Positions 3,756-31,691 of a stretch of DNA of 64,000 bases are shown piece by piece; within the stretch, counting starts at the first letter, position 1, and the number at the start of each line of letters is the position of its first letter. The position numbers and the translations under genes were made by a program. The DNA comes from Lysobacterales bacterium (GTDB taxonomy: Bacteria > Pseudomonadota > Gammaproteobacteria > Xanthomonadales > SZUA-5): the NCBI GenBank assembly GCA_019187485.1, contig JABAQR010000033.1:1-64000 (forward strand). The letters are read 5' to 3'. A model generated the notes under the pieces. That model did not search any database. It was not told where the DNA came from and saw only the letters and a program-made list of their open reading frames with translations.

Positions 3756-4418
3756 CTAACGCTCTTCGCGCGACGAGTCGACCGAGGCGCGCTCGGCGCC
3801 CCCGGCGCTGCGGCTGGCGCTGCCGGGCGGCGTGCCGTCGCGGCCGCCGCCGAAATCCGCGGACGTGCGACCCGCGCCCGACAGACCGCCATTCCAAGGA
3901 TCGCGGCTCGCTTCGGAGAGTCCGCTCCGACGCGCGTCCCGACGAGGATCCGGGCGCGCGCGCAGCGCGGGCCAGGAGTCGCGCGCACCGTAGGCGGTGT
4001 CGTCACCAGGATCGCGGCGTCGCTGCGGCGCCAGATCCTCGTAGCGGGTGAACTCCGGGAACATCGGTGCGCCGGCGAGGTGGCGTGCGCGCGCACCGGC
4101 ACGCGGTCCCTCGATGGTGCGCGGAAACAGGTACCAGACCTGCGGGTAGGGCCACCACCAGGTGCCCGGATAAGCGTATCCATAGCCCGCTCGGCCATAA
4201 CCGTAGCCATAATCGTATCCGCAGACGCCCCAGACGTGCGGCGTGTGGCCCCAGGGACCGTACCAGGAGGGTCGGCAATACCAGCCGTAACTCACGTCGA
4301 CGCCGACACTGGCGCCCGGCGCACGCTCGGTCCACCAGCCGCTCTCGTGGCGCGTGTAGCGCTCGGCGGTACAGCCGGACAGCAGCGCCAGTGCGAACAC
4401 TGCAATCAGCCTGCGCAT
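3756..4418 (-). CDS. Tyr/Gly-rich lipoprotein of unknown function
   Basis: 220 aa. The start at 4418 follows a strong GGAGGAGG Shine-Dalgarno. The N-terminus MRRLIAVFALALLSGC is a lipoprotein signal with the lipobox Cys at residue 16, so it should be exported and lipidated. The middle part is packed with Tyr, Trp and Gly (GYGYGRAGYGYAYPG, YGPWGHTPH); the C-terminal third is Arg/Asp/Ser-rich and looks disordered. I do not recognise a domain. It is divergent from parA across about 130 bp and probably shares a promoter region with it. Retention in the inner or outer membrane cannot be told from the residue after the Cys (Thr-Ala). Confidence 0.8.
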   Translation of the reverse strand: MRRLIAVFALALLSGCTAERYTRHESGWWTERAPGASVGVDVSYGWYCRPSWYGPWGHTPHVWGVCGYDYGYGYGRAGYGYAYPGTWWWPYPQVWYLFPRTIEGPRAGARARHLAGAPMFPEFTRYEDLAPQRRRDPGDDTAYGARDSWPALRARPDPRRDARRSGLSEASRDPWNGGLSGAGRTSADFGGGRDGTPPGSASRSAGGAERASVDSSREER

Positions 4419-4550
4419 CGACTTGCCTCCTCCACGGACTCGCGCCGAGCCTATGCCTCGGGCGGTAAAAACCGAATGAACCACGGCCGGTGCGGGCTGC
4501 ATCCCTATACTGCACCGTTCCAATGCGTCACCGAGTAGGGAGTGCCACGC

Positions 4551-5327
4551 ATGATCCGAGTCGTATTCAACCAGAAGGGCGGAGTCGGCAAATCCACCGT
4601 CGCCTGCAACCTCGCCGCGATCGCCGCCACCAGCGGCCAGCGCACTCTGGTGGTCGATCTCGACGCGCAAGCCAATTCGACCCGTTACCTGCTCGGCCCG
4701 CGAGGTGTCGAACCCGAACTCGGGATCGCCGACTTTTTCGAGGAAACCCTGTCCTACCGCCTGCGCACGCGCGATCCGGTCGAGTACCTGACGCCGACGC
4801 CTTTCGAGAATCTCGCGGTGATGGCCGCCGACGCGCGCCTGTCCGACCTGCAGACCAAGCTCGAAACCAAGCTCAAGATCTACAAACTCGGCGAGCTGCT
4901 GGCGGGCCTGAAGAAGGAGTTCGCGCAGATCTGGATCGACACCCCGCCGGCACTGAACTTCTACACCTTGTCGGCGTTGATCGCGGCCGACCGTTGCCTG
5001 GTTCCCTTCGATTGCGACGATTTCTCGCGCCAGGCGCTCTATCGCCTGCTCGAGAACGTCGACGAGATCCGCGCCGATCACAACAAACGGCTCAAGGTCG
5101 AGGGCATCGTCGTCAACCAGTTCAACGCGCGCTCGAAGCTGCCGACGCGAGTGGTGGAGGAGCTGATCGCCGAGAAGTTGCCGGTGCTGCCGCAATACCT
5201 CTCGACCAGCATCAAGGTCAAGGAAAGCCACGAGGCGGGCAAACCGCTGGTGTTCCTGGAACCCGGGCACAAGCTCACGCAGGAATACCGCGCGCTCTAT
5301 GAGTTGCTGGCGAGGAAGAAGCGCTGA
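4551..5327 (+). CDS. Orphan ParA/MinD-family ATPase
   Basis: 258 aa. I chose ATG 4551 because GGGAG at 4538-4542 sits 8 nt upstream; a GTG three codons earlier overlaps that Shine-Dalgarno. The deviant Walker A KGGVGKST (residues 9-16) has the signature lysine of the ParA/MinD class, followed by VVDLDAQANST (switch region) and an IDTPPAL Walker-B-like motif. Such ATPases position plasmids, chromosomes or protein cargo on the nucleoid or membrane. No ParB is adjacent, so the cargo is unknown. The gene is followed within 8 nt by a heptamer tandem repeat and then pspA in the same direction. A TATACT box at 4506-4511 may be its -10. Confidence 0.9.
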   Translation: MIRVVFNQKGGVGKSTVACNLAAIAATSGQRTLVVDLDAQANSTRYLLGPRGVEPELGIADFFEETLSYRLRTRDPVEYLTPTPFENLAVMAADARLSDLQTKLETKLKIYKLGELLAGLKKEFAQIWIDTPPALNFYTLSALIAADRCLVPFDCDDFSRQALYRLLENVDEIRADHNKRLKVEGIVVNQFNARSKLPTRVVEELIAEKLPVLPQYLSTSIKVKESHEAGKPLVFLEPGHKLTQEYRALYELLARKKR

Positions 5328-5334
5328 GCGACTC

Positions 5335-5405
5335 GGGTACGGGGTACGGGGTACGGGGTACGGGGTACGGGGTACGGGGTACGGGGTACGGGAAAAGGCT
5401 CGCAT
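5335..5405 (+). repeat. Heptamer tandem repeat, about 8 copies
   Basis: GGGGTAC is repeated about eight times (5334-5389), then degrades into GGGAAAAGGCTCGCATCC. The flank AGGCTCGC-ATCC also occurs beside the purine element near 9030, so it seems to be a relative of those elements. Because the period is 7, all frames stay open. It lies directly behind the orphan parA. Confidence 0.9.
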
Positions 5406-5538
5406 CCCCAGGCACATGTGCGGCCAACGTTGTTCTGACATTCCCGGCCGGCCGCTCGCGTTATGCTTGGGCACACTCGAGCGTCCGGCGCCGCGCCAGC
5501 CGCGCGCGACCGATGCGCACCACGACAGGAGTACCACG

Positions 5539-6276
5539 ATGATCTTCGGCAAATTCTGGGCCGCGCTGCGCGCGCAGATGAACAAGCTCGCGAACTTCTT
5601 CTGGGAAGCCGACCCGATCGCGCAGATGCAGTACGAGTACGACAAGTCGGTCGAGGAACTGAAGAACGGCCGCGTCGGACTCGAGCAGTACCGCGGCCTG
5701 GTGGAAAGGGTGACGCGCCAGGTCAGGGAGGGCGAACGCCACGTCGCGCAACTGGAGGCGCAGGCCAAGGCCTACCTGAAGGCCGGCGATCGCGCCACCG
5801 CGGCCAAGTTCGCGCTCGAGATGGAGAAGGCGAAGAAGGACCTGGCCGCCAACCAGGAACAACTGGCGATGCACGAGGCCTCGTACAACAACAGCCTCGC
5901 CAAGATCCAGCACGCCACCAAGAAGCTCGGCGAGGTCAAGGCCAAGATCCAGAAGTACGACGCTGAGATCAAGATGAGCGAGGCCGAGGCCGAAGTCGCC
6001 AAGCTCTCCGAATCCTTCAACTTCAACGTCACCACCGATTTCGGCCAGTTGGAGCAGGTGGTGCAGGAGCGCATCGACAAGAACCGCGGCGCGGTGCGCG
6101 TGGCCGCCGACCTTTCCAACCGCGGCATCGCCGAGATCGAGGCCGAGCAGAACATGGAGAAGGTGATGGCCGAGGACGCGCTGAAGCGCATGGAGATGGA
6201 CATGGGCATCGTCACGCCCGAAATCGCCGCCGCGCCGCCCGCGCAGAAGGAACTCGGCCCGGCGCAGCCGAACTGA
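5539..6276 (+). CDS. pspA: Phage shock protein A (PspA/IM30 family)
   Basis: 245 aa, ATG preceded by AGGAGT. The N-terminal amphipathic segment MIFGKFWAALRAQMNKL is followed by long charged coiled-coil helices (residues about 25-220), as in PspA/Vipp1/IM30, which bind and stabilise stressed inner membrane and polymerise as ESCRT-III-like rings. The length is slightly above E. coli PspA (222 aa) because of a Pro/Ala tail. No PspF, PspB or PspC is nearby; instead the next gene, 41 nt downstream, is a tethered substrate-binding/OmpA fusion. That arrangement suggests an envelope-maintenance operon different from the classical psp locus. Confidence 0.93.
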   Translation: MIFGKFWAALRAQMNKLANFFWEADPIAQMQYEYDKSVEELKNGRVGLEQYRGLVERVTRQVREGERHVAQLEAQAKAYLKAGDRATAAKFALEMEKAKKDLAANQEQLAMHEASYNNSLAKIQHATKKLGEVKAKIQKYDAEIKMSEAEAEVAKLSESFNFNVTTDFGQLEQVVQERIDKNRGAVRVAADLSNRGIAEIEAEQNMEKVMAEDALKRMEMDMGIVTPEIAAAPPAQKELGPAQPN

Positions 6277-6317
6277 GCGCGCGGCTCTCCCCTTTTCCTT
6301 TTTCCCGAGGTTGCGGA

Positions 6318-8063
6318 ATGAACGGTCAACCCAAGCCAGGTTTCTACTTCGTCGTCCTGCTGGTGATCCTGTCGCTGGTGGGCTACGGCCTGTATCGGCT
6401 GAAGACGCCCGCGTCGGACGACCGTCCGCCGCCGGTCGTCGCGGATGCCGACGAGGGCCGCAACGACGGCGGCACGACCACGCCATCTGCCGACGGCGGA
6501 GCCGAGGCGCCCGATGCCGCCGGCATCACCACCGTCAAGGAATACGCCTACGTCCCCAGCCAACGCCTGCCGGATGTCAAGGGCGTGTCCAACTACAAGG
6601 CGATGGACGCGCGCACCGTGCGCTTCGCGATCAATGTGTGGGCCGGCTGGGCGCCGATCGTGCACGCCAACGGCGGATTCAAGCCCGGCAAGACCTGGCA
6701 GGCGCCGGGCGGGCAGCCCTTCAAGGTCGAACTGGTGCTGATCGACGACCCGGTCGCGATGCGCGATGCCTACGCCGCCGGCGATGTGCACATCGGCTGG
6801 GCCACCGTCGACATGCTGCCGCTGCTGCTGGAGAGCCTGCAGAAGGACAGCCGCGTGATGCCGCGCATCTACCAGCAGATCGACTGGTCGAACGGCGGCG
6901 ACGGCATCGTCGTGCGCGAGAGCATCAAGACCGCCTCGGATTTGCGCGGCAAGACCGTGGTGCTGGCGCAGAACAGCCCCAGTCACTTCTTCGCGCTGAA
7001 CACGCTGATCAACTCCGGCGTGGAGCCGGCCGAGGTCGATTTCCGCTTCACCAGCACCGCCTTCGAGGCCGCCGCTGCGTTCAACGCCGACAAGAAGATC
7101 GCCGGTGTGGTCAGTTGGGCGCCGGACATCTACAACCTGTCGGATGTGAAGGGCAACAAGCTGCTGGTGTCCACCGCGACCGCCAACAAGCTGATCGCCG
7201 ACGTCTGGTTTGCGCGCGCCGACTTCGCCAAGGACCACGGCGACATCATGGAAGGCCTGGTGCGCGGGATCTTCGACTCGATGGTGACGCTGGAGGCTCA
7301 GGAGGCCAAGCAGCAGGTGGCCACCTGGATGGCGGAAGGCTACTCGCTGCCGCCAGCCGACGCGCTGGCGATGCTGCCCGACGCGCACTGGACCAACTAC
7401 GCCGAGAACCGCGAGTTCTTCCTCAATCGCAACAACCCGACCAACTTCGAGCGCACCTTCAACACCGCCTACGTGATGTACCGCAAGATCGGTGCGGTGG
7501 CCTCGCGCGTCAGCTTCGACCAGATCGCCGATTTCAGCGTGCTGCAGAAGCTCAACGCCGAGCCGAAGTACGCCAACCAGCGTTCCAGCTACGGCATCAA
7601 CTTCGCGCCGATGAGCGCCAGCGCGATCCAGTCGGAGAGCCCGGAGATCCTGACCAAGACGGTCGTGATCCACTTCTTCCCGAACTCCTGGGATCTGCGC
7701 AAGATGGTGGTCAAGGACCAGAACGGCAAGGCGGTCGAGGAGATGTATGACCCCAACGTCGACTTCGTGCTGGAAGAGATCGGCAAACTCGCTGGTTCCT
7801 ACGGCGCCGCGCGCATCGTCATCGAGGGCCACACCGACGGCTCGATGCGCGGCCAGGTGCCGGAATCGGCGGTCAGGGAGTTGTCCAGCAATCGCGCCAA
7901 CGCGGTCAAGCAGGAGCTCCTGCAGAAGTTCCCGACCATGGACCCCAACCAGTTCTCCGCCCAGGGCATGGGCTGGTCACGACCGGCCGACGCCAGCGAC
8001 GCCGACAACCACGCCAAGAACCGGCGTGTCGAGGTGAAGGTGTACCCGCTGGAAGCGCAATAA
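6318..8063 (+). CDS. Membrane-tethered substrate-binding protein fused to OmpA-type peptidoglycan-binding domain
   Basis: 581 aa. Residues 9-27 form an uncleaved-looking membrane anchor, followed by a Pro/Asp/Gly linker to about residue 70. Residues about 75-440 resemble the NMT1/SsuA-like periplasmic binding fold (VRFAINVWAGWAPI, GWATVDMLPLLLES). The C-terminal 120 residues are an OmpA-like domain with the diagnostic EGHTDGS motif near 503 and a later LSSNRANAVKQEL helix. The protein would span from the inner membrane to the cell wall with a ligand-binding domain between. It follows pspA by 41 nt, and a terminator follows it. No permease or ATPase is adjacent; a NitT/TauT-type ATPase at 30.7 kb is a candidate partner (inference). 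The ligand is unknown. Confidence 0.88.
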   Translation: MNGQPKPGFYFVVLLVILSLVGYGLYRLKTPASDDRPPPVVADADEGRNDGGTTTPSADGGAEAPDAAGITTVKEYAYVPSQRLPDVKGVSNYKAMDARTVRFAINVWAGWAPIVHANGGFKPGKTWQAPGGQPFKVELVLIDDPVAMRDAYAAGDVHIGWATVDMLPLLLESLQKDSRVMPRIYQQIDWSNGGDGIVVRESIKTASDLRGKTVVLAQNSPSHFFALNTLINSGVEPAEVDFRFTSTAFEAAAAFNADKKIAGVVSWAPDIYNLSDVKGNKLLVSTATANKLIADVWFARADFAKDHGDIMEGLVRGIFDSMVTLEAQEAKQQVATWMAEGYSLPPADALAMLPDAHWTNYAENREFFLNRNNPTNFERTFNTAYVMYRKIGAVASRVSFDQIADFSVLQKLNAEPKYANQRSSYGINFAPMSASAIQSESPEILTKTVVIHFFPNSWDLRKMVVKDQNGKAVEEMYDPNVDFVLEEIGKLAGSYGAARIVIEGHTDGSMRGQVPESAVRELSSNRANAVKQELLQKFPTMDPNQFSAQGMGWSRPADASDADNHAKNRRVEVKVYPLEAQ

Positions 8064-8098
8064 GGCGGGTTCCTGCTTGTCGATCGCTGGTTTCTGGC

Positions 8099-8131
8099 AG
8101 AAGCCCGCGTTCGTGCGGGCTTCTGCTTTTT
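8099..8131 (+). terminator. Rho-independent terminator
   Basis: The stem AGAAGCCCGC/GCGGGCTTCT has a 6-nt loop and is followed by GCTTTTT. It ends the pspA/SBP-OmpA transcript and separates it from etfB. Confidence 0.85.
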
Positions 8132-8244
8132 CCGACAACCAACAGCTCAGACGAAGCGGGTCCGCAGGCCCACCTCGCTTGGCACCTCCACGCCCCTTGG
8201 CTACCATCGCCCGGTTCTCTTTGTACTGAAGGCTGGCGCTGGGC

Positions 8245-8991
8245 ATGAAGATCCTCGTGGGTTTGAAGCGGGTCGTCGATTACACCGTGCGCGTGCAGGT
8301 CAAGCCGGACGGGTCCGGCGTGGCCATCGATGGCGCCAAGATGAGCGTCAATCCCTTCGACGAGATCGCGCTCGAAGAGGCGCTGCGACTGCGCGAGGCC
8401 GGAAAGGCGAGCGAGGTCGTGGTGGTTTCGATCGGCGTGGCGGCCTGCATGCAGCAGATCGACACCGGCCTCGCGATGGGCGCCAACCGTGGCATCCTGG
8501 TCAAAACCGAGGGGGCGATCCAGCCGCTGACGGCAGCGCGCGTGTTCGCGAAACTGTGCGCGAAGGAACAGCCGGACCTGGTCATCCTCGGCAAGCAGGC
8601 GATCGACGACGACGCCAACCAGACCGCGCAGATGCTGGCCGCGCTGCTCGACCAGCCGCAGGCTACGTTCGCCAGCAAGGTCGAAGTCGATGGCAACGTC
8701 GCGCGCGTGACCCGCGAGGTCGACGCCGGCCTCGAAACCCTGGAAGTCGACCTGCCGGCGGTGCTCAGCGTGGACCTGCGCCTGAACACGCCGCGCTTCA
8801 TCAAGCTGCCGGACATCATGAAGGCCAAGAGCAAGCCGCGCGAGACCATCGAACTCGCCAGCCTCGGCATCGAATCCGGCGACCACCTCGCCACCACCCA
8901 GCACGCGCCGCCGCCGAAACGCCAGAAGGGCGTGATCGTCAAGGACGTGCCGGAGCTGATCGCGGCCCTGAAGGCCAAGGGCTTGCTTTGA
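8245..8991 (+). CDS. etfB: Electron transfer flavoprotein beta subunit
   Basis: 248 aa. The N-terminus MKILVGLKRVVDYTVRVQVK is typical of EtfB, and the AMP-binding region and the conserved ETF beta signature (VDLPAVLSVDLRLNTPR) are present near residues 170-190. With EtfA it forms the soluble FAD/AMP heterodimer that takes electrons from acyl-CoA dehydrogenases and passes them to ETF-ubiquinone oxidoreductase. etfA follows in the same direction, but a 144-bp spacer carrying a purine/pyrimidine stutter hairpin interrupts the pair, which is unusual for genes normally a few bases apart. Confidence 0.97.
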   Translation: MKILVGLKRVVDYTVRVQVKPDGSGVAIDGAKMSVNPFDEIALEEALRLREAGKASEVVVVSIGVAACMQQIDTGLAMGANRGILVKTEGAIQPLTAARVFAKLCAKEQPDLVILGKQAIDDDANQTAQMLAALLDQPQATFASKVEVDGNVARVTREVDAGLETLEVDLPAVLSVDLRLNTPRFIKLPDIMKAKSKPRETIELASLGIESGDHLATTQHAPPPKRQKGVIVKDVPELIAALKAKGLL

Positions 8992-8996
8992 GAGCA

Positions 8997-9118
8997 GGAA
9001 AAAAGGGAAAAGGGAAAAGGGGAGAGCCAAGGCTCGCCTGATCCATCCTGACCCGACTCCCGATTTTCGCCCGGACCTGAACCCCTTTTTCCGTTTTCCG
9101 TTTTCCTTTTTCCCGCTT
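8997..9118 (+). repeat. Purine/pyrimidine stutter inverted repeat between etfB and etfA
   Basis: A purine arm (about 8997-9026, repeated GGGAAAA units) is mirrored by a pyrimidine arm (about 9082-9115, repeated TTTTCCG/TTTTCC units) across about 55 nt. The arms pair imperfectly because copy numbers differ. Similar elements are at 5.3, 46.9 and 54.7 kb, and a lone pyrimidine arm (TTTTCCTTTTTCCCG) follows pspA at about 6290-6306. Confidence 0.8.
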
Positions 9119-9135
9119 CCGAGGGAATCCGAGCC

Positions 9136-10074
9136 ATGTCCAAGATCCTCATCATCGCCGAACACCTGAATGGCCAGCTCAACCCGAGCACCGCCAAGTG
9201 CGTCAGTTGCGCCAGCAAGATCACCGGCGCCAGCATCGACATCGCGGTGCTCGCGGCCGACCCGGCGGCGGTCGCCGCGCAGGCCGCGCAGATCGCCGGG
9301 GTCGCGCGTGTGCGCACACTGGCGAACGCCGCCAACGCGCACGCACTCGCCGTGGTCTACGCGCCGCAGGTACTGGCGATCGCCGGGGAATACACCCACG
9401 TCTTCGGCCCCTCGACCACCTTTGGCAAGGACCTGATGCCACGGATTGCGGCGAAGCTCGGCGTCAGCCAGGTGTCGGACGTGATGGCGGTCGTCGACGC
9501 GCACACCTTCCAGCGTCCGATCTACGCCGGCAACGCGATCGTGACGGTCAAGGCCCCGGCGGGCCGGACCGTGGTCGCGACCGTGCGCACGGCGTCCTTC
9601 GCGGCCGCCAGCGGTGGCGGCTCGGCGGTGATCGAGGCCGTCGCGATGGACGTGCCACTGCCCACACACACGCGTTTCGTGTCCTTGCAGCAGGGCGGTG
9701 GCGACCGCCCCGACCTGCAAACCGCACGCGTGGTCGTCTCCGGCGGCCGCGCGCTCGGCAGTGCCGAGAACTTCCAACTGATCTACGACTTCGCCGACAA
9801 ATTGAAAGCCGGAGTCGGCGCCTCGCGCGCCGCGGTCGATTCCGGCTACGCGCCGAACGACCTGCAGGTCGGCCAGACCGGCAAGATCATCGCCCCCGAG
9901 CTGTACATCGCGATCGGCATCTCCGGCGCGATCCAGCATCTCACCGGCATCAAGGACGCCGGCACCATCGTCGCGATCAACAAGGACGCCGAAGCGCCGA
10001 TCTTCGAAGTCGCCGACATCGGCCTCGTCGCCGATCTGACCAAGGCGGTTCCGGAGCTCATGGCCGCGCTCTGA
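9136..10074 (+). CDS. etfA: Electron transfer flavoprotein alpha subunit
   Basis: 312 aa, ATG behind a GAGGGAATCC stretch. The C-terminal FAD-binding domain is clear ([19 protein letters not shown], then [19 protein letters not shown], residues about 255-305). It is the FAD-carrying partner of EtfB in electron transfer from beta-oxidation and related dehydrogenases. The length fits the usual 310-320 aa. The neighbour downstream is hemC in the same direction after 183 bp. Confidence 0.97.
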
Positions 10075-10257
10075 GGGCCGGAGCGTTGCGGGAGGGCTTG
10101 CGGTCCGTCTGGTCACGCCTGGGGCGCCCGATCAAACCCCGGCGACTGCCCGCCGTCCGCCACCCTGCTCCGCGTCGCACGTTTCATCCCGAACGCGAGG
10201 TTCGCGACCCGAGCTGCCCCACCGCATACTTGCGCGCCTCGTTCCCACGCGCTCCCA

Positions 10258-11175
10258 ATGCCTCTGCGCATCGCCACCCGCAAATCGACGCTCGCCCTGT
10301 GGCAGACCGAACACGTGGCGGCGCGACTGCGCGCGCTCGATCCGCAGTTGCAGGTCGAACTGGTGCCGCTGTCGACGCGCGGCGACGAGGTGCTCGACCG
10401 CTCACTCGCGGCGATCGGTGGCAAGGGCTTGTTCCTCAAGGAGCTGGAACTGGCGCTGGAGCGCGGCGAGGCGGATATCGCGGTGCATTCGCTCAAGGAC
10501 GTGCCGATGGAGCTGGAACCCGGCTTCGAACTGGCCGCGATCCTGGAACGCGAGGACCCGGCGGATGCCTTCGTCAGCAACCACTTCGAGGACCTCGACG
10601 CGCTGCCGCAGGACGCCATCGTCGGCACTTCCTCGCTGCGTCGCCACGCGCAACTGATCGCGCGCCGACCGGACCTCGTCGTGCGCGATCTGCGTGGCAA
10701 CGTCAACACGCGCCTGGCCAGGCTCGATGCAGGCGACTACGACGCGATCATCCTCGCGGTCGCGGGCCTGAGGCGCCTCGGCTTCGACGCACGCATCCGC
10801 TCCCGCCTGTGTGCGCCCGACTGGCTGCCTGCAGCGGCGCAGGGCGCGATCTGCATCGAGGCCCGCGCCGGCGACCACGCGATCATCGAGCGCGTGCGCG
10901 CGCTGCACGATGCCGCCACCGCCACCCGCATCCGCGCCGAACGCGCGCTCAACCAGCACCTCGGCGGCAGCTGCCAGGTGCCGATCGCCGCGCTGGCGAA
11001 CCTTGCGGGTGCCGGGTTGCATCTGCAGGGCCTCGTCGGACACGCGACCAGCGGACGACTTGTGCGCGCCGAGGAGCACGGCGAAACCGTCGAGCCCGAA
11101 GCCTTGGGCCGGCGCGTCGCGCAGGCCTTGCTGGATGCCGGGGCAGGCGAGTTGTTGCAGGGCGTTTGCCGGTGA
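10258..11175 (+). CDS. hemC: Hydroxymethylbilane synthase (porphobilinogen deaminase)
   Basis: 305 aa. The N-terminus [14 protein letters not shown] and the motif [19 protein letters not shown] are family signatures. The dipyrromethane-cofactor cysteine is in GGSCQVP near residue 240. It polymerises four porphobilinogens into hydroxymethylbilane in heme synthesis. The next pathway enzyme, HemD, is not adjacent. hemF lies 12 kb away in the window. Confidence 0.96.
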
Positions 11176-11454
11176 ATCGAGCGCGTCGCCGTGCAGCCCG
11201 GTGTGCGCGCGCGGCGCGTTCGTCACGGAGCGGTATGGACCTGCGAGCGGATTGGCAACCTGACGAAAAATCTCGCCCGCGAGCTCCTGCTGTCGCCAAT
11301 TCGGCGCCGGCGCCATCCGGCAGGCGGTGCCGTCGATCCACTTCCTGTGCCGGTCGTCTTTCCAGCGCGGATAGTCGCCACAGGTGCGGGTCTGGTGCTG
11401 GCGCGCGGGTGTGCTCATGACGAGTTGCCCCCGTTCATCACCAACACCCGCTCC

Positions 11455-12936
11455 TCAATCCCCCACGCCGAGGCGCTTGCGTTCCAGCCGGCGCAGGAAC
11501 TCGGCCATCACGCGCCGGTACAGGTCCTCACCGAGGTAGGCGTCCTCGATGCCCCAGTCGATGTTGGGGTTGTCGTTGATTTCGATGATCACCACGCGGT
11601 CGCCGACCTGTTTCAGGTCGACGCCGTAGAGGCCATCGCCGATCTGTGCGGTCGCGCGCTGGGCGAGCTTGACCACTTCGGACGGGACTTCGCGGATCGG
11701 CAGGGTCTTGAAGTCGCCGCTGCGCGCCTCACCCTTGGCGGCGTGGTTGTAGATCTGCCAGTGCCCGCGCGACATGAAGTACTGGCAGGCGTACAGCGGT
11801 TCGCGGTTGAGGATGCCGATGCGCCAGTCGAATTCGGTCGGCAGGTATTCCTGGGCGAGCACCAGCGCGGTCTGGCCGAACAGTTCCTCGGCGCCGCGCT
11901 TGAGTTCGGCGGCGTCGGCGACCTTGACGATGCCGCGCGAGAAGGAGCCGTCCGGCACTTTCAGCACCAACGGGAAACCGAGGGTATCGCCGAGTTCGGC
12001 GAGTTTCTTGGGCTCGTCCTTGTACAGGATCTCGGTGCGCGGGGTCGGCAGCTTGCGGCTCTTCAGCAGGTCCGACAGGTAGATCTTGTTGGTGCAGCGC
12101 AGGATCGAGGTGGGATCGTCGATCACCACCATGTCTTCCTTCTCCGCCTTGTTGGCGAAGCGGTAGCTGTGGTGGTCGAGCGCGGTGGTCTCGCGGATGA
12201 ACAGCGCGTCGTACTCGGCCAGGCGCGCGTAGTCGTTGCGGGTGATCGGGTCGACCTCGATGCCGAGGTCCTTGCCGGCGCTGATGAAGGCCTTCAGCGC
12301 CTTCTTGTTCGACGGCGGCCACTGTTCGGCCGGGTCGTGCAGCATCGCGATGTCGTAGCGGTACTTCTTCGGCGTGCGCTTGCCGCGCCAGAGCTTCTTG
12401 CTGAAGCGGTCGAGCGCCGCCGCGAAGGCGTCTTCCTGGGCATCGGACAGCGTGTGCAGTCCGGCCGGCTTGACCGCGTCGATCTCCCACTTGCGGTCGC
12501 GCTCGAACTCGATGCGCAGGATCGGGCAGGGGAAGGCTTCGAAGACCTGGCGCGCGAGGTCGCGCAGCGGCTCGTAGCCGGTCTCGCCGAAGTAGACCAG
12601 GATGCCGAAGTCGGTGGTGTCGCGTTCCTGCGCGAGGTGCCGCGTCAGCTTCTGGTTGAGGTCCTCGATGTCGACGCCGTACAGCGAGCGCTTGCGCAAA
12701 TCGTTGATCGCGCGCACCGAGGGAATCACCTTGTGGCCGCGCGCCTCGGCGAGCAGCGAGACGTAGTAGCCGGTGCCGAGGTACTTGTAGCTGCGGCAGA
12801 GATTGATGACCTGGGTGCGCTCCTCGTCGGAGCGGATCGGCTCCTTGAGGTAGTCCATCGCAGTGACGACGTTGTCGGACGGGTAGTAGCTGCCCCAGTC
12901 CGAGGCTTTCTCGACGACGATGACGAGCCGACTCAT
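11455..12936 (-). CDS. RimK-like ATP-grasp ligase with RLAN N-terminal domain
   Basis: 493 aa from ATG 12936 (MSRLVIVVEKASDWGSYYPS). The N-terminal 200 residues match the RLAN-type domain found ahead of RimK-like ATP-grasp modules; the C-terminal ATP-grasp shows LVLKVPDGSFSRGI, the LAQEYLPTEFDWRIGIL segment and a metal-binding EINDNPNID near the end. Family members ligate amino acids or make peptide-like bonds with ATP; the substrate is unknown. A GNAT acetyltransferase is divergent 165 bp away, and RimK-like/GNAT pairs recur in proteobacteria, which hints at a shared modification pathway. Confidence 0.88.
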   Translation of the reverse strand: MSRLVIVVEKASDWGSYYPSDNVVTAMDYLKEPIRSDEERTQVINLCRSYKYLGTGYYVSLLAEARGHKVIPSVRAINDLRKRSLYGVDIEDLNQKLTRHLAQERDTTDFGILVYFGETGYEPLRDLARQVFEAFPCPILRIEFERDRKWEIDAVKPAGLHTLSDAQEDAFAAALDRFSKKLWRGKRTPKKYRYDIAMLHDPAEQWPPSNKKALKAFISAGKDLGIEVDPITRNDYARLAEYDALFIRETTALDHHSYRFANKAEKEDMVVIDDPTSILRCTNKIYLSDLLKSRKLPTPRTEILYKDEPKKLAELGDTLGFPLVLKVPDGSFSRGIVKVADAAELKRGAEELFGQTALVLAQEYLPTEFDWRIGILNREPLYACQYFMSRGHWQIYNHAAKGEARSGDFKTLPIREVPSEVVKLAQRATAQIGDGLYGVDLKQVGDRVVIIEINDNPNIDWGIEDAYLGEDLYRRVMAEFLRRLERKRLGVGD

Positions 12937-30660: not shown

Positions 30661-31557
<897 letters not shown>

Positions 31558-31691
31558 GTGCGCATCCGGCAGGCGGAGGGCCGATGATGGCGCCCCCATC
31601 CGGTCCCGACAATCGAACCGCGGCCCGGCTTTCCCTTTTCGCTTTCCACAACTCCTATCCTTCGCGCACCCGAACCCAGGCCCTCGTCCAC

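Follow-up and report, generated by a model that had tools for sequence, protein, structure and literature searches.

A pspA paralogue and a wall-tethered binding-protein gene in a Lysobacterales bacterium: probable parts of an ABC importer linked to membrane remodelling

The window analysed here is a stretch of 64,000 nucleotides from the genome of a Lysobacterales bacterium (contig JABAQR010000033.1, positions 1 to 64,000; the genome is called G000 below). Near its start, 41 nucleotides apart on the forward strand, lie a pspA paralogue and the gene for SBP-OmpA, in which a membrane-anchored substrate-binding protein continues into an OmpA domain (Table 1). The initial annotation had placed both reading frames correctly, along with the terminator that follows them, which folds at -27 kcal/mol with a z-score of -5.68. 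A simple terminator scanner gave no call at this hairpin, apparently because a G-U pair extends its stem into the T run. Inspection of the window neighbours also bore out the absence of PspF-, PspB- and PspC-like genes around pspA. Upstream sits a gene for a ParA-type ATPase, and between it and pspA is a perfect 7-bp tandem repeat, GGGTACG, in 8.3 copies (window 5335-5392).

Table 1. Features of the window pair and of the related genes in G000 (positions are those of the window unless a G000 contig is named)
Feature	Position	Strand	Details
ParA-type ATPase adjoining pspA	4542..5327	+	PF13614
pspA paralogue	5539..6276	+	245 aa; ESCRT-III/PspA-type coiled coil; PF04012 (PspA_IM30) 47.2 bits, cut-off 33.9; orthologues in six-gene operons 62-75% identical
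SBP-OmpA, membrane-anchored substrate-binding protein fused to OmpA peptidoglycan-binding domain	6318..8063	+	581 aa
Predicted inner-membrane anchor helix of SBP-OmpA, residues 7-28	6336..6401	+	AlphaFold2 model, pLDDT profile
TauA/SsuA-like ligand-binding domain, about residues 95-390	6600..7487	+	Foldseek; sub-cut-off TIGR03427/TauA/SsuA matches
OmpA-type domain, about residues 445-581	7650..8060	+	38.8 bits, above cut-off
Intrinsic terminator	8096..8131	+	13-bp stem, 6-nt loop, T run; RNA fold
ATPase component of the ABC system, solitary and unlinked	30661..31599	-	312 aa as listed; inner ATG 31554; ABC_tran
Double-AAA gene	G000:C50:6073-7800		808 bits (operon-protein profile)
C5	G000:C29:42412-43263		264 bits (operon-protein profile)
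Permease	G000:C9:55076-55861		328 bits; sole match of its family in G000

The union of an anchor, an NMT1/SsuA-like binding domain and an OmpA domain in a single protein, as first read from the letters, is upheld by an AlphaFold2 model (mean pLDDT 82.5), by Foldseek and by the OmpA profile. After the anchor the model has a disordered linker (residues 29-73, from pLDDT). The best PDB match of the binding domain is TauA (6ssy, E 2e-16, TM-score 0.79 on the target). In fold and in their best sequence hits, the binding domain, the permease and the ATPase all resemble the TauABC/SsuABC importers and Uca-type (TIGR03427) binding proteins. Matches to the curated models nevertheless fall far below their cut-offs: for the binding domain 42 bits against 490 for TauA and 39 bits against 164 for SsuA, with TIGR03427 likewise below its own. 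Since the urea-, taurine- and sulfonate-type matches are all so far short, we dropped the naming of a ligand and claim none. TauABC/SsuABC-type transporters import anions; unlike them, the system described here has a binding protein with a membrane anchor and an OmpA tether, and PspA and AAA partners. Within the OmpA domain, D507 and R526 are invariant in 25 of 25 homologues and align with the Asp-Arg pair conserved in Acinetobacter baumannii Omp38, the residues that bind diaminopimelate in domains of this kind. By its sequence the OmpA domain is of the peptidoglycan-binding type.

The neighbouring PspA is a significant but divergent member of its family, with an N-terminal helix that resembles a membrane-binding helix. 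G000 has a separate, more typical pspA on contig C16 (L134 7741-9181), followed by pspB- and pspC-like open reading frames whose identities were read by eye rather than by model, and also holds a third PspA-family match; the window PspA is for these reasons a specialised paralogue. Between it and the C16 pspA product there is only a non-significant match of 69 residues (27% identity, E 0.2). The classical Psp system (PspF-PspABC) thus shares with the window a PspA-family protein, but the window gene has neighbours other than PspF, PspB and PspC, and its product barely matches the G000 PspA whose gene precedes the pspB- and pspC-like frames. PspA proteins belong to the ESCRT-III superfamily and bind and remodel membranes, according to PMC8281802 and PMC12358876.

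The wider setting of the pair came from a scan of 84,980 species genomes, which returned 56 loci. By the labels of the metagenome-assembled genomes, these come from Acidobacteriota, Planctomycetota, Myxococcota/'Deltaproteobacteria', Riflebacteria/Ozemobacter, Aminicenantes, Eisenbacteria, Krumholzibacteriota, Elusimicrobia and others. Clustering of their open reading frames gave a common order: pspA, SBP-OmpA, permease, ABC ATPase, C5 and AAA. Among the 22 loci from outside the Lysobacterales that were well flanked (at least 3 kb upstream and at least 6 kb downstream), single-domain queries found the permease and the ATPase in every one (22/22 each), C5 in 21/22, pspA in 19/22 and the double-AAA ATPase in 18/22. 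Chance adjacency of pspA and SBP-OmpA is ruled out by this recurrence. The idea that the two genes form a unit by themselves does not survive it either, as a permease and an ATPase belonging to the fusion adjoin it in all 22. The original proposal of a ligand- or wall-responsive membrane-maintenance system was right in that, well outside G000 too, a binding protein tethered to membrane and wall recurs together with a PspA paralogue dedicated to it; a self-contained pair, however, is not supported. Nor does the constant company of a permease and an ATPase make this an ordinary ABC operon, because pspA, C5 and the double-AAA gene travel with it. An ordinary nutrient importer whose closeness to pspA and AAA genes has no functional meaning would account for the resemblance of binding protein, permease and ATPase to sulfonate/taurine-type importers. 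We regard it as highly improbable: pspA, C5 and AAA accompany the importer in many phyla and have been kept together beyond the break-up of the operon, and the combination is found again, with a PspA-like protein, in huge phages.

An operon with the same six gene types (PspA/TM-protein/double-AAA/ABC/PBPB-OmpA) was noted in one passage of a 2024 mSystems paper, with OGG56892.1 as its example (PMC11237479). The authors proposed that ATP-dependent remodelling of the membrane is linked to the transport of a solute, the OmpA domain engaging peptidoglycan and PBPB the solute. The bacterial six-gene operon is therefore already known in outline; in the literature on SBP-OmpA fusions we found nothing on such a system beyond that paper. 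Its authors also proposed the C5-type TM protein as a relative of Snf7 (PMC11237479). Our structure model of C5 has two predicted TM-type helices and a coiled coil. A Foldseek search with it gave no match under E 0.001 (CdvB2 came at E 1.1), comparison with BAR-like folds gave Z about 8, which is within helical noise, and profile comparison with PspA gave 0.4%. The likeness to the archaeal (Cdv) and eukaryotic ESCRT-III/Vps4 systems lies in a linked AAA ATPase and in PspA, a member of the ESCRT-III superfamily (PMC8281802). It is limited by C5, which has no detectable ESCRT-III relation here, and by the AAA protein, which scores best against CDC48/PAN models and reaches just 53 bits against CdvC.

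In the window's own family the arrangement is different. Only pspA and SBP-OmpA are contiguous in G000; the remaining four genes are scattered, the ATPase elsewhere in the window and the others on other contigs. For this reason we call it a dispersed variant. The window ATPase was recognised with the ATPase of a sister genome, G006, as query: the match at window 30676-31467 on the minus strand scores 409 bits, the next G000 ATPase 129 bits. It is 70% identical to the G006 protein, whose gene comes directly after SBP-permease. All six genes are kept, though dispersed, in G000, G002, G003, G004, G006 and G007, and the gaps seen in G001, G005 and G008 fall in incomplete genomes (77-86%). As judged from these sequences, the operon in this family is broken up with all of its parts kept. 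A count across 348 Pseudomonadota genomes finds full-length SBP-OmpA and C5 in exactly the same three, but these include G000 itself, where the two genes are on different contigs, and two genomes in which they are adjacent; retention within the family is therefore the stronger argument. That genes should be dispersed yet retained is independent evidence that their association is functional rather than operon hitch-hiking.

Whether the pspA-fusion neighbourhood holds in relatives has a divided answer. Genera g1, g3 and g4 have pspA and SBP-OmpA adjacent, but in the sister genus g2 (G003, G006) the fusion is contiguous with permease and ATPase, and pspA lies elsewhere, beside the same ParA-type gene. 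The ParA-type ATPase stays next to pspA in both g1 and g2 despite their differing gene order, which hints that PspA and positioning are linked. It adjoins the same pspA also in L036, L090, G003 (C77) and G006 (C303), and is an optional associate outside the six-gene core.

Two Lysobacterales families, f2 and f4, hold a further variant, in which pspA, AAA, C5 and SBP-OmpA form one operon and PspA is of another subtype. A close permease is absent from G022 and G045 (best scores 29 and 21 bits with the permease profile), and in G037 the only one is distant (102 bits) and lies beside an ATPase. With PspA, AAA, C5 and SBP-OmpA present and no close permease, transport cannot be the whole function there. 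At the positions invariant in 23 members of permease-bearing systems, f2 and f4 keep 40% in the ligand domain against 75% in the OmpA domain, figures to be read with the divergence of the branch as a whole in mind. The branch has probably changed or lost its transport role, and SBP-OmpA may have a sensing role, above all here. These families lend themselves to a reading in which the tethered binding protein is a self-sufficient sensor of ligand or of wall distance that controls PspA without any transporter, as does the adjacency of pspA and SBP-OmpA as a terminated unit in g1, g3 and g4 (the terminator being shown for the window). Against such a sensor, G000 and its sisters keep an orthologous permease and ATPase; the fusion in g2 adjoins those two genes and not pspA; and the ligand-domain residues that are altered in the permease-less branch stay of the operon, permease-linked type in the window's family. 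We think it unlikely. The same 75% against 40% could instead speak for a mainly mechanical tether between wall and membrane that recruits PspA and AAA, its binding domain a relic or a spacer. This we consider quite unlikely, since the ligand domain is strongly constrained in permease-bearing members (76 invariant columns among 23 diverse members) and an OmpA core is expected to be the more conserved part anyway.

The explanation we favour, and hold to be probable, is that the pair supplies two of six components that make up an ABC importer and, coupled to it, a PspA/AAA module for membrane remodelling. The permease is TauC/SsuC-like and the ATPase TauB-like, and both belong to the same operon family and the same genome as the window pair. 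From domain content, tethering elements, gene sets and co-retention we infer how such a system might work. The tethered binding protein would hand a small solute, perhaps anionic or urea-like, to the permease near the wall, at sites of contact between membrane and wall. PspA, with C5 as its likely membrane partner, would assemble beneath this membrane patch into an ESCRT-III-like coat, and the AAA protein would disassemble or remodel the coat. Solute flux, or the spacing between wall and membrane, would thereby be linked to membrane stabilisation. The cues for where and when PspA-family proteins, the bacterial relatives of ESCRT-III, assemble are poorly known. If the explanation is true, a transporter that is physically fixed to both membrane and wall and has a PspA and an AAA ATPase of its own would offer a defined and testable link from the envelope to membrane remodelling.

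The system also has a phage version. PHROG family 25518 matches residues 90-574 of SBP-OmpA, and tblastn located the phage protein in 15 Lak megaphage genomes and in one 735-kb phage assembly filed under two accessions. When IMG/VR was scanned with a profile of the phage protein, 16 contigs of 55-513 kb came up, two of which look near-identical at the SBP-OmpA locus. A PspA-like gene, SBP-OmpA and the permease follow one another in 13 of the 16, and the ATPase is there too in 12, one of them (L203) counted on weak evidence. Lak-A2, Lak-C1 and LR756501 have the same gene order; in Lak-B5 an insertion splits the ATPase. The TM-anchored PspA-like proteins have an N-terminal hydrophobic region. 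In hhalign their profile matches that of bacterial PspA with 96.7% probability over 219 colinear columns, with control values of 25% for C5 and 0.1% for AAA; a profile of three phage sequences gave 50% against bacterial PspA. A coiled-coil open reading frame accompanies the PspA-like, SBP-OmpA, permease and ATPase genes, in conserved order, at L180 (MK250019.1), L181 (LR756501.1), L182, L183 and L188-L203. We judge evenly poised the reading that huge phages encode a version of the system of their own, composed of these last four proteins, with which they would remodel or stabilise the inner membrane of the host and take up or sense a solute in the course of the long infection by so large a phage. 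The cluster goes unmentioned in the main texts of the Lak papers searched and of one on huge-phage ATPases, and the literature searched on huge-phage or TelA systems gave nothing on such a cluster beyond PMC11237479. One further contig, filed as viral (L184, IMGVR_UViG_3300029286_002355, 186 kb), carries all six bacterial-type genes at 4388-12535, preceded by a vWA lipoprotein gene and with the AAA gene split over two overlapping reading frames; no terminase was found on the contig, so it may be bacterial.

What is new here, then, is the dispersed but co-retained version, with pspA and SBP-OmpA standing alone in the window's family, where the published operon is contiguous; the ATPase in the window; the permease-less branch; and the phage version. 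The last points to very large phages co-opting this envelope machinery, and it appears undescribed in the literature searched.

Some loci carry embellishments of their own. An NtrC-type sigma-54 activator or a HATPase-domain protein flanks some of the operons of Myxococcota/'Deltaproteobacteria' (L049, L053, L057, L046, L058), which suggests two-component control. At three Riflebacteria/Ozemobacter loci (L067, L074, L088), pspA is flanked by two SBP-OmpA paralogues in one operon. The Vibrio plasmids pSEA2 and pIFO15640 (L178, L179; about 300 kb) have a cluster of ABC ATPase, SBP-OmpA, vWA, 'phosphate SBP/OmpA', toxic-anion-resistance protein, Uca-type SBP and permease genes, and so two OmpA-tethered binding proteins. 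Like the six-gene system it joins ABC genes to a binding protein on an OmpA tether (23% identity over 82-87%) and includes another membrane-stress-type gene, but PspA, C5 and AAA have given way to vWA and a protein annotated for toxic anion resistance.
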